Below are positions 24,949 to 31,134 of a stretch of 32,102 nucleotides of DNA, piece by piece. Source of the DNA: Bacillota bacterium. GTDB taxonomy: Bacteria > Bacillota > Clostridia > Christensenellales > Pumilibacteraceae. The number at the start of each line of letters is the position of its first letter. The stretch's first letter is position 1. The stretch is from positions 1 to 32,102 of the forward strand of contig DXHT01000043.1 in assembly GCA_019113265.1 (NCBI GenBank). The letters run 5' to 3'. Under the pieces are notes generated by a model. It saw only the letters and a program-made list of their open reading frames with translations, made no database searches and was not told the DNA's origin. Position numbers and translations under genes: made by a program.

Positions 24949-24985
24949 AAAAAGGGCGGAAAGCTTTGGCTTTCCGCCCTTTTTG
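24949..24985 (+). terminator. Terminator after rplL
   Basis: A perfect 16-bp stem (AAAAAGGGCGGAAAGC and its complement) around TTTG, ending in TTTTT. Confidence 0.95.
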
Positions 24986-25004
24986 CGAGCACGGGTATGT
25001 ATTT

Positions 25005-25198
25005 GCAGGGGAAACCCCCTTCTTTGAAAAGAAGGGGGTTTCCCCTGCACCCCTTCCTCTAAGAAACTTAAAGTCCTTATATGTTGGGGGAGGGACGCCG
25101 CAGATTGTCAAGTTAAGTGCAACACTTTGTTGGCGGCTTTCCCTGCATCCCTTCCTCCGAGAAACTTAAAATCCTTATATGGGGAGGGTGCTGCCGTT
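25005..25198. repeat. Palindromic and duplicated repeat element with possible IS-end remnant
   Basis: A perfect 20-bp inverted repeat (25005-25024 with 25029-25048, loop TGAA) would form a long hairpin. Its right arm begins a roughly 45-60-nt segment (25039-25101) that is repeated, about 90 percent identical over its first 45 nt, at 25138-25198. Both copies share AGAAACTTAAA and TCCTTATATG followed by a G-rich run. Between them, ATTGTCAAGTTAAGTGCAACA (25104-25124) resembles, from memory, IS30-family terminal repeats. No transposase is present. The remainder of the gap to the promoter at 25356 shows no gene. Confidence 0.75.
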
Positions 25199-25355
25199 TC
25201 GATGTGAGTGGTGTGCCACAGCGTTAAACATGCTCCGCGGATTTTTGTCGCTTGGGCGGGCAATGCGGGGTTGAAAGTGCGTGCAAAAACCGTGACAGTT
25301 TTGTGAAATTGCCGATTTGTGTAAAAAATGCAATGTAAGTGTGTAAAAAACTCTA

Positions 25356-25385
25356 TTGATTTTTAGCGTAGGGGGGGGGTATAAT
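25356..25385 (+). promoter_or_regulatory. Promoter with nine-G spacer tract (possible phase-variable switch)
   Basis: TTGATT (25356-25361) and TATAAT (25380-25385) are separated by 18 nt, the last nine of which are G (25371-25379). Gain or loss of a G would change the spacer to 19 or 17 nt. It drives the lipoprotein-GH3 operon. Confidence 0.75.
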
Positions 25386-25439
25386 AAGAATAAGAACATT
25401 GCGTTACTCTAAATCGGCAATGAACTAAGGAGGAGTGTT

Positions 25440-27497
25440 ATGGGAACAGGAAAAAGAGCGATAGCCGCTTTATGCGTTGTTTTGCTCGCATTTTTCGTTA
25501 TACTGCCGTTTGCCGCTTGCGGTGATTCGCAAGATGACGGCGGTAGCGGCGGCGTCACGGAAAAACCTACGGGAAGCGTCGAGCAGGATCTCAGTATGTT
25601 CGATACGATCCCGCACTATGATGTGGAGCCGCATGTGGTATACACGCTTACGATAAGCGGTGACAACGCCACGTTTGCGGACGGATCGAAGAGCGTCAGT
25701 ATTGCGGAAGATTCGCTTCTTCCCAACATTGTTTGCACTAATGACGGCGAATATGTGATCGGGGTGAAATATGTCGGAACGGGCAAGGAAGTCAAAGATT
25801 ATCGCTTCCGCATGCCTGCCGAAAATACGACGATAGAGATCATCACAAGCAATGAGAAGCCGCCGTATTTTGCCGAGCTGAGTCCGGGTACGAACGGATT
25901 CGATTATAACAGTTCGGGTGACGATACGCTGTGGGAGGAAGTCGCGTTTAATATTGAAGCAAATTCTCCGTTTACGATGAACGCCGAATACGATATAGAA
26001 GTGATCAAAACGGGAACGGATATCGACGGTAACGGCAGCGACGACTTTTTGCGCGGCAATGTGCTGGAAATCAGCGGAGTTGCGGGCAATTTCGCACGAA
26101 TGCTTTCGAGCGCGGGCGATTTCGGCAGCGAAGAGGGCATCATCGCCGGAGAGACATATACTTTTACATATAACTTCGAAAACTTCGGCGAGAACGAGAT
26201 ATCTTTCCGCATGTATCAGACGCAGACGACGATCAGACTCGGGGTTACCGGCGACAAGGGCGCCGCAACGGCGGTGAATGCCGGCAGAACGATAACGCTG
26301 GGAGCGGGCGAATCCGCCTCTTACAATATATCGTTTACCGCCGACGCTGAAAATAACAACATAATTCCCGTTCTCGAACTGCGCTCGACGTTCAAAAAAG
26401 AAAAGCTCGGTATCGCGATCGCAAAAGAAAACAAAGATCTTTCCTGTACTCACGAAATCGCGAAGATCGATGCGGAAGACGGTGATTGCGGAAGAGCGGG
26501 TAACGTTGAATATTACGGGTGCGCGCTGTGCGGCGGTATGTGGTCGGACGCGGAGGGACAGAATCCCGTTGCCATGACGGACGTAACGGTCAAAAAGGAG
26601 CATACTACGGGCGAGCAATACGGAGGCATAGGTCAGGAAACGCACCGCGATAAGTGCAGCGTGTGCGGCGGCGTGGTCGGCGACGCCGCTAAGCATGAAC
26701 TTCGATATGTGGTAATCGAAGTGCCTACGCAGGAGTCCGACGGGCGCAGTGAGGAAAAATGCGTTAAATGCGGATATGCGACTGGAAATGAAATGACGCT
26801 GACATACGACGACTATTATAACATGGTCGGCGTTTACGGAACGGAAGTGTCCGTTGCCAATTCCATTGGAGCGGGACTTCCCGACGAAATTGCGGCGTTG
26901 CTGGACGACGAATTCTTCGATACCGAAACGATGACGGTATACACGAAGAGCGACTTTGCCATGCCGGATCGCGACGTAACGCTGCGCAATTTCGATGAGC
27001 CTGTCGGAACCGGGATATTGCATCTAGAAAAGAAAGGCGGCAGCGGTGACGCCGGACCTCATTGTTATGACGGTTGTAAGGCAGAGTTGAAAAGCCGTGA
27101 AGATACTGCCGTCGTTACAGAGGACGGACGTGCCGTAAAGGGCAGGGAATTGACGTTTACGAATCCGACGGGAGTTTTCCGCATAGACGCAAACTACACT
27201 CCCGATGCGCAGACTCTCGGCGTGGACGGTATGGTTTTCCACCTGACGATACAGAACAGGACGAATGCGACGATCACATTTGGTGTGGGGCAGGTAAACA
27301 GCGTTAGCAATAAGGTGGACGGTGCATACGTCGACGATGTAACGTTGAAGCACGGCGAAACAAAGACATTTACGCTTACGTTCCCGGACGGCAAAGGGTG
27401 GACAAATGCAAATGCGCTTACGTTGTTTGATTTTGCGGACGGAACGCCTTCCGAAGTGACGATAGCGATGGCGCTCTCTTACGAGCCCAAGGCATAG
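25440..27497 (+). CDS. Large surface lipoprotein with Cys-pair motifs and beta-sandwich modules
   Basis: A 685-residue exported lipoprotein, function unknown. The signal sequence ends in the lipobox PFAAC at about residue 27. An acidic Gly/Ser linker and a short beta-rich domain follow. A first beta-sandwich-like module lies at about 150-320 (containing FTYNFENFGENEISFRMY and GESASYNISF). A central part has three CxxC pairs in a repeated context (YGCALCGGMW, DKCSVCGGVVGD, EKCVKCGYATG). A C-terminal module at about 575-685 (FHLTIQNRTNATITFGVGQ, HGETKTFTLTF) resembles the first. The two sandwich modules look like carbohydrate-binding or adhesion domains, and their pairing with a GH3 enzyme in one operon supports a role at glycans. 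AAGGAGGAG precedes the ATG. First gene of the operon behind the poly-G promoter. Confidence 0.85.
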   Translation: MGTGKRAIAALCVVLLAFFVILPFAACGDSQDDGGSGGVTEKPTGSVEQDLSMFDTIPHYDVEPHVVYTLTISGDNATFADGSKSVSIAEDSLLPNIVCTNDGEYVIGVKYVGTGKEVKDYRFRMPAENTTIEIITSNEKPPYFAELSPGTNGFDYNSSGDDTLWEEVAFNIEANSPFTMNAEYDIEVIKTGTDIDGNGSDDFLRGNVLEISGVAGNFARMLSSAGDFGSEEGIIAGETYTFTYNFENFGENEISFRMYQTQTTIRLGVTGDKGAATAVNAGRTITLGAGESASYNISFTADAENNNIIPVLELRSTFKKEKLGIAIAKENKDLSCTHEIAKIDAEDGDCGRAGNVEYYGCALCGGMWSDAEGQNPVAMTDVTVKKEHTTGEQYGGIGQETHRDKCSVCGGVVGDAAKHELRYVVIEVPTQESDGRSEEKCVKCGYATGNEMTLTYDDYYNMVGVYGTEVSVANSIGAGLPDEIAALLDDEFFDTETMTVYTKSDFAMPDRDVTLRNFDEPVGTGILHLEKKGGSGDAGPHCYDGCKAELKSREDTAVVTEDGRAVKGRELTFTNPTGVFRIDANYTPDAQTLGVDGMVFHLTIQNRTNATITFGVGQVNSVSNKVDGAYVDDVTLKHGETKTFTLTFPDGKGWTNANALTLFDFADGTPSEVTIAMALSYEPKA

Positions 27498-27508
27498 GAG
27501 AAACGGCA

Positions 27509-27967
27509 ATGAACTTCATAAAGAGATATTTTGAAAACAGGAATACCGCGTTCTTCATTGCACTCGCGGTTGCGGCGGCGGCAATAATAACGTCGATAGT
27601 ATACGCCGCATTGTGGACGGACGGCATAAGATCGGTCGGAACACTGATCCTTATGATAGTCGGAGCGCTTGCTTTCGTCGGCTTATCCGCGGTCAATGCT
27701 CGGACGGGCGCCGCCGTAATGGCGGTATGCGACTGGGTGGCGTTGGGGCTGTACATATACTCGGTATACAACTATGTGTTCTCGCGCGCCATATCAGGGC
27801 TGGATTTTACCGATCCGACAATGCGTAAAATGATTGCGTTCGCGGTCGTTACGGTGGTATTGACCATACTTTCCAACGTATTCGCATGGACGCCGCTTTG
27901 CAAAAAGAATAAGAATGCCGTATCGGACGCGACGACGGCAACGGAGGCGAAAAATGGAAAAATCTGA
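27509..27967 (+). CDS. Small four-span membrane protein in the GH3 operon
   Basis: A 152-residue integral membrane protein with about four hydrophobic spans (roughly residues 13-33, 43-62, 68-92 and 110-130) and a short hydrophilic C-terminus rich in Lys, Asn and Thr. I recognise no catalytic motif. It starts 11 bases after the lipoprotein stop, with GGAG upstream, and overlaps the GH3 gene by 14 bases. It is therefore clearly part of this operon and translationally coupled to the enzyme. It may help place the enzyme in the membrane or pass on products, but this is inference from position only. Confidence 0.85.
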   Translation: MNFIKRYFENRNTAFFIALAVAAAAIITSIVYAALWTDGIRSVGTLILMIVGALAFVGLSAVNARTGAAVMAVCDWVALGLYIYSVYNYVFSRAISGLDFTDPTMRKMIAFAVVTVVLTILSNVFAWTPLCKKNKNAVSDATTATEAKNGKI

Positions 27968-30900
27968 TAAAACGGCAAAAATGTTTTTTATATCAAAAAT
28001 ATTGTTCAATATTTTTGCGGTATTGCTCATTCTCGTGAACGTGATCGGCGTAATATGCGGAAATATGGAAAGATTCATAACCGACATGGTGTTCGGGGGA
28101 TATCAGACGATAACGAAATTTTCCGAGGACAGCATTGTTTTCGATTCCGATTATAACAGCGTCAGACAGGTTAAGGCCGCGTCGCTCAACGTGTGTAACG
28201 CTTCGGCGAGCGAAGGCGCGGTGCTGCTTAAAAACGACGGAGTGCTTCCTCTCGCACAGGGCAGTAAGCTGAGCCTTTACAGCATATCATCCGTTCAGCC
28301 GCTTTACGGCGGCGGTGGCGGTGCGATCGTATGCAATTTCGTGGAACAGGATAAGGTGTATTTCACTGACGGACTGGAAGCCGCGGGACTTACATACAAC
28401 GAGGATCTGTATGACTGGTATGATAGACAGTGGGGAACTTTCGGCAGGAAGAACGCCGTCGGAAACGGAAAGGTCGCGACGATAGACGAAGTGCCTTGGA
28501 ACGTGATAGACGAGAGCGCAAAGACGCAGAAAGCGGACGTGGGTGTGTTCGTTCTCAGTCGTTCGGGCAGAGAAGCGATAGACCTCGAAGATTCGTATCT
28601 GCAACTGGACGAGAACGAAAAGTCGGTGCTCGAAGGCATGAAAGCCGAAAAGGAAAAGGGGACGTTCTCAAAGATACTGCTGCTGCTCAATACCGCGAAT
28701 CAGGTGGATCTCGATTTCCTCGAGGCGGACGATTACGGTATCGACGCGGTGCTCTGGATGGGACTTCCCGGAACGAGCGGCTTATACGGCATATGCGATA
28801 TGCTTGCGGGACACGTCACTCCTTCGGGGAAACTCCCCGACACATGGTATAACGACATTGCATACGATCCGTCAACGGCGAACTACGGCGACTTCAAACA
28901 TGCAAACGACGGACTTCCGTATGTCGTTTACCAAGAGGGCGTGTATCTCGGCTATCGCTACGCCGAAACGCGTTACGAAGACGTTGTGACGAAACGCCCT
29001 CGCGCGGGCGAGTTCGATTACGAGGCAAACGTGCAGTACCCGTTCGGTTACGGTCTGTCGTATACGACGTTTGAATATTCGGATTATTCCTACAAATACG
29101 AGCCGTCGACGGACGAATATGTCTTTAACGTGACGGTGAGAAACTCCGGCAGCGATTATTCCGGCAAGGAAGTCGTCGAACTGTATTTGCAGAAGCCGTA
29201 TACCGATTATTCCGAAGAGAACAACATAGAGGTCGCATCCGTCGAGCTTGTCGGCTTTGCAAAGACGAAAAAGCTCAAACCGGGCGAGACTCAGCCCGTC
29301 GAGATAAGAGTTCCCGGCAAGTCGCTTGCAGTATACGACGCCTACGGCGCGGGAACATACTATCTCGATGCGGGGGACTATTATTTCGCGCTCGGCAACG
29401 GATCGCACGACGCGGTAAACAACATTCTCGCGGCTAAGGGAAAAACGACGGCGGACGGCATGACCGAGGACGGAAACTCCGATTTCGCGATAAAGTATAC
29501 GGTGGAGGAGCCGTCGGCGACGCTTTATTCCACGGTAACGACGAACGGTGTTGAAACGGAAGTCCGCAACCTGTTCGATTACGGCGACATAAACCGACTT
29601 AATGACGGAGTCAATTCGGTCGAGTACTACTCCCGCAGCGACTGGCAGGGGACGTTGCCCGCGCTCGGTGAGGACGGCAAGTACTACGCTTCAATGCACG
29701 CTGTTATTAACGGTTCCGACAAAATAACCGAGCAGCATTCGACAGACCGGGGCAATGCCATTCTCAAAAAGGATGAAAACGGTAACGACAGGGTGTATAA
29801 GCTCGAAGAGGTAATGGACGACGGCAGGGAATATCCGAAATACAACGTTAAGAACGATATTCAATGGCAGGATATGCGGTGGAATGCGGAAACGGGCGAG
29901 CTTATCCCTTATGACGATCCGAAGTGGCAGGATTGCTTGGACCAGCTTTCCTGGGAACAGACCTGCACGATAGTCCTGAACGGCCTGCGCTCCACGGCAC
30001 TCGCCGAGAATGAGGAAACGGGATTCGTATATCCCGGAACTTACGATCCGAATGGCCCGACGGGAGTCATGCAGGAAGGCTGGGGCATATACGGCAACAC
30101 GCTCGGCACGAACGGTTTCGCGAACCTGTATGACGACCCCGATAAGAAAGAGAACATAGTGGGGTATCCTTGCCCGTCCATGACGGCAGCGACATTCAAT
30201 ACCGAACTATACGAGGCGGTAGGCCGCTCGATGGGCGAGGAAGCGCTGTGGGCGGGGATCAACGGCGTATACGCGTTCACCGTCAATCTTCACCGCAACG
30301 CTCTTCACGGCAGAGCCTGCGAATCGTTCAGCGAAGACAGCACTCTTTCGGGCATGGCTGCGGCATATATGTCCGCCGGATGCCGCGAAAAGGGTCTTAA
30401 CGTATATACCAAACACATAGTGCTCAACGAGCAGGAAACAAACAGGTGCGATCCCATTCCCCACGAATCGTGGATAAGCGAACAGGCCTTACGCGAAGTG
30501 TATCTTAAACCGTACGACATGGCGATCAGAATAGGCGGGGCGAGAAACGTGATGACGAGTCTTGCGCGTGTGGGCGCCGTATGGAGCGGTCACAGCCGCA
30601 ACCTTATGACGGACTGGCTGCGCGGAGAAGCGGGACTCGAAGGCAGCGCGATAACCGACTGGTTTATGAGCGCGTATATGAGCATAAAGGGCGGCATACT
30701 TTGCGGACAGGATTTTCCTGACGGCAACTGGCTGCAGGGCGAGCTTGACTTTGCGGAAGGCGGCGGCGCGTCCGCCGTGGCATGGGCAATGCGGGAAGCC
30801 GCGCACAGGATAATGTATTCTTCCGTACAAGGTAATCGCGTCAACGGTCTTGCCGCGGGCACCGCGATCGACATAACCGTGCTTACGCCCACATGGGTCA

Positions 30901-31022
30901 AGGTCAAGAACGGGATCATGATCGCGGCTAATATCCTCGGGTGCGCGGCAGTCGTATTCTTCGCTGTTTCCGCCGTGCTGTATGCGGTCAGGCGTTCGAA
31001 GAACGGCAAAAGCGTGAGTTAG
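27954..31022 (+). CDS. Circularly permuted, membrane-anchored GH3 family glycoside hydrolase
   Basis: A 1022-residue GH3-family enzyme (beta-glucosidase or related exo-glycosidase) with reversed domain order. After an N-terminal membrane span (about 10-34) comes the GH3 C-domain (ASEGAVLLKNDGVLPL, SGKLPDTWY, YPFGYGLSYTTFEYSDY) and a fibronectin-III-like module (GKEVVELYLQKPY, GFAKTKKLKPGETQPVEI). An insert follows, and then the TIM barrel (YPCPSMTAATFNTELYEAVG, HGRACESFSEDSTLSG, TKHIVLNEQETNR, MTSLARVGAVWSGH). The nucleophile Asp902 is in SAITDWF, which matches the family SDW motif. A second membrane span (about 980-1005) ends the protein. ATG 27954 has GGAGG six bases upstream; the ORF-track start at 27915 is not supported. 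Both anchors would hold the enzyme at the outer face of the membrane. Last gene of the operon. Confidence 0.92.
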   Translation: MEKSDKTAKMFFISKILFNIFAVLLILVNVIGVICGNMERFITDMVFGGYQTITKFSEDSIVFDSDYNSVRQVKAASLNVCNASASEGAVLLKNDGVLPLAQGSKLSLYSISSVQPLYGGGGGAIVCNFVEQDKVYFTDGLEAAGLTYNEDLYDWYDRQWGTFGRKNAVGNGKVATIDEVPWNVIDESAKTQKADVGVFVLSRSGREAIDLEDSYLQLDENEKSVLEGMKAEKEKGTFSKILLLLNTANQVDLDFLEADDYGIDAVLWMGLPGTSGLYGICDMLAGHVTPSGKLPDTWYNDIAYDPSTANYGDFKHANDGLPYVVYQEGVYLGYRYAETRYEDVVTKRPRAGEFDYEANVQYPFGYGLSYTTFEYSDYSYKYEPSTDEYVFNVTVRNSGSDYSGKEVVELYLQKPYTDYSEENNIEVASVELVGFAKTKKLKPGETQPVEIRVPGKSLAVYDAYGAGTYYLDAGDYYFALGNGSHDAVNNILAAKGKTTADGMTEDGNSDFAIKYTVEEPSATLYSTVTTNGVETEVRNLFDYGDINRLNDGVNSVEYYSRSDWQGTLPALGEDGKYYASMHAVINGSDKITEQHSTDRGNAILKKDENGNDRVYKLEEVMDDGREYPKYNVKNDIQWQDMRWNAETGELIPYDDPKWQDCLDQLSWEQTCTIVLNGLRSTALAENEETGFVYPGTYDPNGPTGVMQEGWGIYGNTLGTNGFANLYDDPDKKENIVGYPCPSMTAATFNTELYEAVGRSMGEEALWAGINGVYAFTVNLHRNALHGRACESFSEDSTLSGMAAAYMSAGCREKGLNVYTKHIVLNEQETNRCDPIPHESWISEQALREVYLKPYDMAIRIGGARNVMTSLARVGAVWSGHSRNLMTDWLRGEAGLEGSAITDWFMSAYMSIKGGILCGQDFPDGNWLQGELDFAEGGGASAVAWAMREAAHRIMYSSVQGNRVNGLAAGTAIDITVLTPTWVKVKNGIMIAANILGCAAVVFFAVSAVLYAVRRSKNGKSVS

Positions 31023-31095: not shown

Positions 31096-31134
31096 CCGTA
31101 CAGCCGCGCTTTATACGCGGCTGTACGGATTTTG
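31096..31134 (+). terminator. Terminator after the GH3 operon
   Basis: A perfect 13-bp stem CCGTACAGCCGCG/CGCGGCTGTACGG around CTTTATA, followed by ATTTTG. A smaller hairpin CGGACC-GTAA-GGTCCG (31068-31083) lies just upstream. Confidence 0.85.

Follow-up and report, generated by a model that had tools for sequence, protein, structure and literature searches.

The window analysed here, a stretch of 32,102 nt, is contig C36 of a genome (G000) that comprises 1.54 Mb in 98 contigs. It carries an operon for a lipoprotein, a membrane protein and a GH3 enzyme, preceded by a promoter in which a run of nine G fills one half of the spacer between the -35 and -10 hexamers. The features of the locus are as follows.

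24954..24984, + strand: hairpin plus T-run 3' of rplL, set between the ribosomal operon and the poly-G promoter (read from sequence)
25356..25361, + strand: -35 hexamer TTGATT (read from sequence; promoter-site scoring)
25371..25379, + strand: G9 tract, the 3' half of the 18-nt spacer and putative slippage site (sequence; the orthologue in G011 has G10)
25380..25385, + strand: -10 hexamer TATAAT (sequence; promoter-site scoring)
25428..25436, + strand: ribosome-binding site aaggaggag (read from sequence)
25440..27497, + strand: gene 1, lipoprotein of 685 aa with lipobox ..LPFAAC-G, without Pfam family (ORF, Pfam)
27509..27967, + strand: gene 2, membrane protein of 152 aa, without Pfam family (ORF, Pfam)
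27915..31022, + strand: gene 3, GH3 enzyme of 1035 aa with an N-terminal membrane anchor (ORF, Pfam)
31096..31128, + strand: terminator-like hairpin of 13 pairs ending the operon (hairpin search)

The 18-nt spacer reads tttagcgta and then G9, which abuts TATAAT. An earlier note on this DNA had reported nine G beside TATAAT in an 18-nt spacer, and this was confirmed at 25356-25385. The promoter lies 55 nt upstream of the operon and, with a score of 10/12, is the top sigma-70-type site on either strand between 22000 and 32102; in the same type of scan, no other + strand site lies in the interval from rplL to the lipoprotein gene. Its tract is also the only run of eight or more G in the 32-kb window. 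Dinucleotide-shuffled versions of the window gave a mean of 0.59 8-mer matches, so under this null the G run is not extreme by itself.

Nested inverted repeats of 11 and 10 nt (25308-25336 and 25396-25421) flank the poly-G promoter of the window. They are the longest seen among 69 poly-G promoters and are not a general feature of these; an invertible promoter was considered as an explanation and set aside on the evidence of the repeats alone, since those of the window were not seen at the other promoters in this comparison of 69. Further upstream, at 25002-25083, there is a repeat-like element (AAGGGGGTTTCCCCTGCA...CTTCCTC) that recurs in this genome on contigs C23, C25 and C37.

Gene 3 meets the criterion for a GH3 glycoside hydrolase, as its GH3_C and GH3_N domains both exceed the Pfam cut-off. 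The domain order is GH3_C - Fn3 - GH3_N, a nucleophile-like TDW motif is found at residue 914, and the true start of the gene likely lies at about 27954. GH3 numbers are extreme in this genus, whose genomes span 1.1-1.8 Mb, with 35 GH3_C matches in the window's own genome, 46 in G001 and 42 in G013; G003 and G004, of the same genus, have just 2-4. The GH3 proteins of the genus that were examined are membrane-anchored and show the permuted domain order.

Recurrence of poly-G promoters

Runs of 8-11 G occur 16 times in the window's genome, and 10 of them sit between -35 and -10 boxes with at least 10/12 consensus matches, in every case with G on the sense strand. Same-genus background DNA (240 kb from two genomes) holds 460 runs of G4, 53 of G5, 2 of G6 and none of G7 or longer. 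As this background tops out at G6, the G9 tract cannot be put down to chance, and the genus background is a better null than the shuffled window.

The genus was searched with the pattern TTGA-N(2-14)-G8-N(0-14)-TANNNT, with the reversed pattern serving as control. The pattern matched 108 times, at about 73 distinct tracts, and 12 of the 14 genomes had at least one match; the reversed pattern matched 4 times. Under a stricter pattern that required TTGAC and TATAAT boxes, 29 of the 74 family genomes and 52 of the 297 order genomes had matches, as did 19/41 and 44/151 genomes of two further families of the order, and the control count was 0 in each of these searches. Recurrence is therefore far over control. 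Beyond the order, merely 5 of 369 Clostridia gave a similar pattern. No poly-C spacer was seen among 82 tracts examined.

The criterion for promoters of the porA/tp0126 type, an uninterrupted homopolymer of at least eight bases between -35 and -10, is thus met. The same architecture occurs in the cultured isolates Pumilibacter muris CLA-AA-M08 (G049), which NCBI places in Pumilibacteraceae, Clostridia, and strain An564, and it is also borne by the complete genome of Treponema ruminis RU1. Contig C6 of G049, a genome of the window's family, agrees over its first 8000 bases with NZ_CALPCN010000006.1 of P. muris. Among the matches listed from an all-species scan, there are many MAGs of gut Clostridia and Bacilli, together with Candidatus Borkfalkia, Candidatus Ancillula, Saccharibacteria, Treponema ruminis and others. 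A Candidatus Ancillula MAG from termite gut (L057, L087, L103, L113, L144) has at least five poly-G promoters with 9-13 G. In family f14, genome G843 has 20 strict poly-G promoters, and most of these are near-identical copies (TTGACAAGCAG8TGGTATAAT), each of which has G8 and a 15-nt spacer.

Tract-length differences

The orthologous promoter of a sister species (G011:C61), in which the lipoprotein is 93% identical, has G10 where the window has G9, and a -10 box of TAAAAT. Across 250 aligned upstream bases, the tract is the sole gap. The earlier note had held that a G9 length fixed across strains would refute phase variation, and at the species level we find the opposite. In the same comparison, about 170 bases 5' of the promoter (window 25121-25290) are identical or nearly so between the two species, as is the start of the lipoprotein gene, and the intervening leader differs. 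Judged from the alignment, this arrangement of conserved blocks around a divergent leader may possibly reflect recent recombination.

Other pairs with conserved flanks differ in the same manner, with G8 versus G9 (G000:C19 and G006:C16), G8 versus G10 (G007:C155 and G012:C33) and G9 versus G11 (L070 and L118). Paralogous loci in a rabbit-gut MAG read TTGACACC-G8, G9, G9, G10-TAATATATAAT. Overall, 13 flank pairs were seen with more than one tract length, and the criterion that tract length should differ between related genomes with conserved flanks is met. The promoter TTGACAAAGTGCC-poly-G-TATAAT forms a natural length series, with G9 in L070, G11 in L118 and G10 in G820:C10, giving spacers of 16, 18 and 17 nt, respectively.

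Most of the genomes are short-read MAGs, in which long runs of G are prone to error. The occurrence of contig ends close to tracts was considered as a general sign of length polymorphism, and this idea was rejected because most such ends lie in repeats: the end of G000:C93 lies inside a repeat, other contig ends overlap outside the tract, and only the pair C116/C143 of G009 survived. Here, the end of C143 (G8) and the start of C116 (G10) share identical 54 flanking nt, which we read as putatively a single locus whose tract has two lengths among the reads, although two separate loci are not fully excluded. This is the sole hint of variation within a population; it does not come from the species of the window, and it rests on assembled contigs without reads. 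Length change within populations is thus inferred.

These data bear on whether the tract might instead be an evolutionary tuning knob, whereby its length sets promoter strength between species or strains but changes too slowly for reversible cell-to-cell switching. All demonstrated length differences bar one do separate species or paralogues, and sets of paralogous copies of one promoter can hold a single length, as in G843, with about 12 copies at G8, and in G278, with four at G10. Slow tuning is harder to reconcile with the overlapping G8 and G10 contig ends of G009, seemingly one locus, with the within-isolate variation of poly-G runs of 9 in T. pallidum (PMC7864442), and with the length and unbroken state of the tracts, although substitutions would soon break a neutral run. 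We consider this explanation unlikely, though not to be dismissed.

Avoidance of 17-nt spacers

Ordinary TTGACA-TATAAT promoters in two genomes of the genus have a 17-nt spacer in 106 of 150 listed cases. When the distinct poly-G promoters from all searches were pooled (337 among the matches listed), the spacer was 15 nt in 42, 16 nt in 69, 17 nt in 26, 18 nt in 49, 19 nt in 66 and 20 nt in 35. The share with 17 nt is 8% for poly-G promoters versus 71% for ordinary ones (Fisher P about 1e-45), and among poly-G promoters 17 nt is less frequent than both neighbouring lengths (P = 3e-5). These P values assume independence, and paralogues and relatives are not fully independent. The dip at 17 is seen separately in the first order-wide set (158) and in the named set (119 among the matches listed), which partly overlap. 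It is also found inside single genera, with counts at 16, 17 and 18 nt of 5, 0 and 6 in g68 and of 8, 1 and 8 in g36, for which reason a mixture of lineages was rejected as the source of the bimodal spacing. The replicate set from the two further families, taken alone, shows 6 at 17 versus 13 and 11, which is in the same direction but not significant (P = 0.08).

At G9, the part of the spacer that is not G measures 7 nt (34 cases) or 9 nt (19 cases) and rarely 8 nt (2 cases), indicating that, with a tract of the usual length, the slower-evolving remainder of the spacer leaves the promoter 1-2 bases away from the optimum. Avoidance of 17 nt is what a mostly OFF promoter activated by slippage would show, and it would be hard to square with a fixed promoter. 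It is an inference that the tract length most often assembled corresponds to an OFF or weak promoter, as the optimum for a G-rich spacer may not be exactly 17 and the ON lengths in this clade are assumed.

A fixed spacer with a structural role could nevertheless be imagined, either in a non-optimal promoter that needs an activator, following MerR-like logic, or as a target for a protein that binds the G-tract. Activator-dependent promoters are known for non-optimal spacers, and the spacers here are likewise off 17; some lineages hold to a single spacing, which is 15 nt in both G163 and G843. However, the non-optimal lengths fall on either side of 17, the tract has no fixed place between the boxes, being flanked on each side by anything from 0 to about 10 other bases, orthologues differ in length, and the 69 promoters compared have no common flanking inverted repeat, all of which leaves a fixed or regulator-bound spacer very improbable. 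Chance or assembly artefact scarcely needs to be entertained: short-read assemblies do handle long G runs badly and the shuffled window permits about 0.6 G8 matches, but the reversed-pattern control for the strict boxes was 0 across hundreds of genomes, and the cultured isolates and the complete Treponema ruminis RU1 genome carry such tracts.

Genes behind poly-G promoters

In the genus, 42 of 59 first genes behind poly-G promoters encode a hydrophobic segment at the N-terminus, versus 31 of 225 background genes; for a lipobox the counts are 21 of 59 and 2 of 225, respectively. These counts rely on simple heuristics, with background genes taken from two genomes. Pfam families found for genes behind the poly-G promoters of the genus include GH3 (9), Big_3 (5), ABC transporters (5), BspA-type LRR (4) and LytTR response regulators (4). 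With the export enrichment and the presence of GH3, Big_3 and BspA-LRR families, the criterion that such promoters control surface or host-interaction genes is met. The GH3 genes behind poly-G promoters are a minority of the genus's GH3 set.

Proposed mechanism and relation to known systems

We propose a phase-variable sigma-70-type promoter with the G9 tract as its slippage site. When Gs are gained or lost in replication, the spacing between -35 and -10, now 18 nt, would shift, and this change would in turn alter transcription of the lipoprotein-membrane protein-GH3 operon, an effect that is inferred. Loss of one G would give the usual 17-nt optimum. The earlier note had likewise claimed that G8 gives the optimal spacer; the claim agrees with the literature on tp0126 and porA (PMC7864442), with the optimum in this clade being assumed. 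In T. pallidum, transcription of tp0126 is best when the poly-G brings spacing to 17, and the tprL tract ranges from 7 to 11 within isolates, being mostly 9 (PMC7864442). The poly-G of N. meningitidis porA lies between -35 and -10, and cutting the 17-nt spacing loses transcription (PMC7864442).

In the absence of reads, transcripts or reporter data, we have good though incomplete confidence that the element in the window is a phase-variable poly-G promoter, one of about 10 in its genome and part of a large set in the family and order. The best explanation is that this set mostly drives exported lipoproteins, membrane-anchored GH3 enzymes, LytTR response regulators and ABC transporters. Phase variation through the promoter spacer, as the earlier note had suggested for this locus, remains the best-supported reading and extends well past it, although cell-to-cell switching stays inferred. 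A bolder proposal is that of an order-wide, promoter-only poly-G phasome in which the usual G9 misses 17, such that populations would be mostly OFF at every locus while a few cells would be ON, and this would hold simultaneously for many exported lipoproteins, GH3 enzymes and LytTR regulators; on this we remain evenly divided.

The tp0126/tpr system of T. pallidum resembles the present one in that poly-G lies between (tp0126) or near the boxes of surface-protein genes, and the modal tprL length of 9 is that seen here. It differs in that its host is a pathogenic diderm spirochaete and its products are outer-membrane proteins, whereas here we have an uncultured member of the gut Clostridia, lipoproteins and GH3 enzymes, and switching that is inferred. 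The vlp genes of Mycoplasma similarly have a homopolymer in the promoter spacers of lipoprotein genes, but the tract is poly-A and the hosts are wall-less Mollicutes. In Neisseria, promoter-type tracts are few and coding tracts many, unlike in the window's genome, where 10/16 long G runs are promoter spacers. The porA promoter does share a spacer poly-G and expression dependent on spacer length (PMC7864442).

In the gut commensal Bifidobacterium breve UCC2003, G-tracts are also subject to slippage, but the tracts studied there, in pilus genes, are in coding sequence and act by frameshift, with promoter-spacer G-tracts mentioned in passing (PMC9187656). A homopolymer survey of 99 genomes treats coding genes (PMC2831843). 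The invertible promoters of C. difficile and Bacteroides likewise make surface and regulatory genes of gut bacteria phase-variable (PMC11868660), but they need a recombinase and inverted repeats, whereas the 69 poly-G promoters compared here share no flanking inverted repeat. In the passages found in that 2025 phase-variation review, Clostridia come up solely for C. difficile invertible DNA (PMC11868660). We found no description of a poly-G promoter system in Clostridia in the open-licence literature searched; the mechanism is known, but the host group, the scale and the avoidance of 17 nt appear to be undescribed in that literature.

Phase variation in gut Clostridia has so far mainly meant the invertible DNA of C. 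difficile. Avoidance of 17 nt provides a simple genome-wide test of phase-variable promoters in any lineage, and the idea can be put to the test in a cultured carrier, Pumilibacter muris. If the reading is true, a large and mostly uncultured order would have up to about 10 or more slippage promoters per genome, and cell- and strain-level differences in surface and glycan-degrading functions would escape both gene-content surveys and consensus assemblies.
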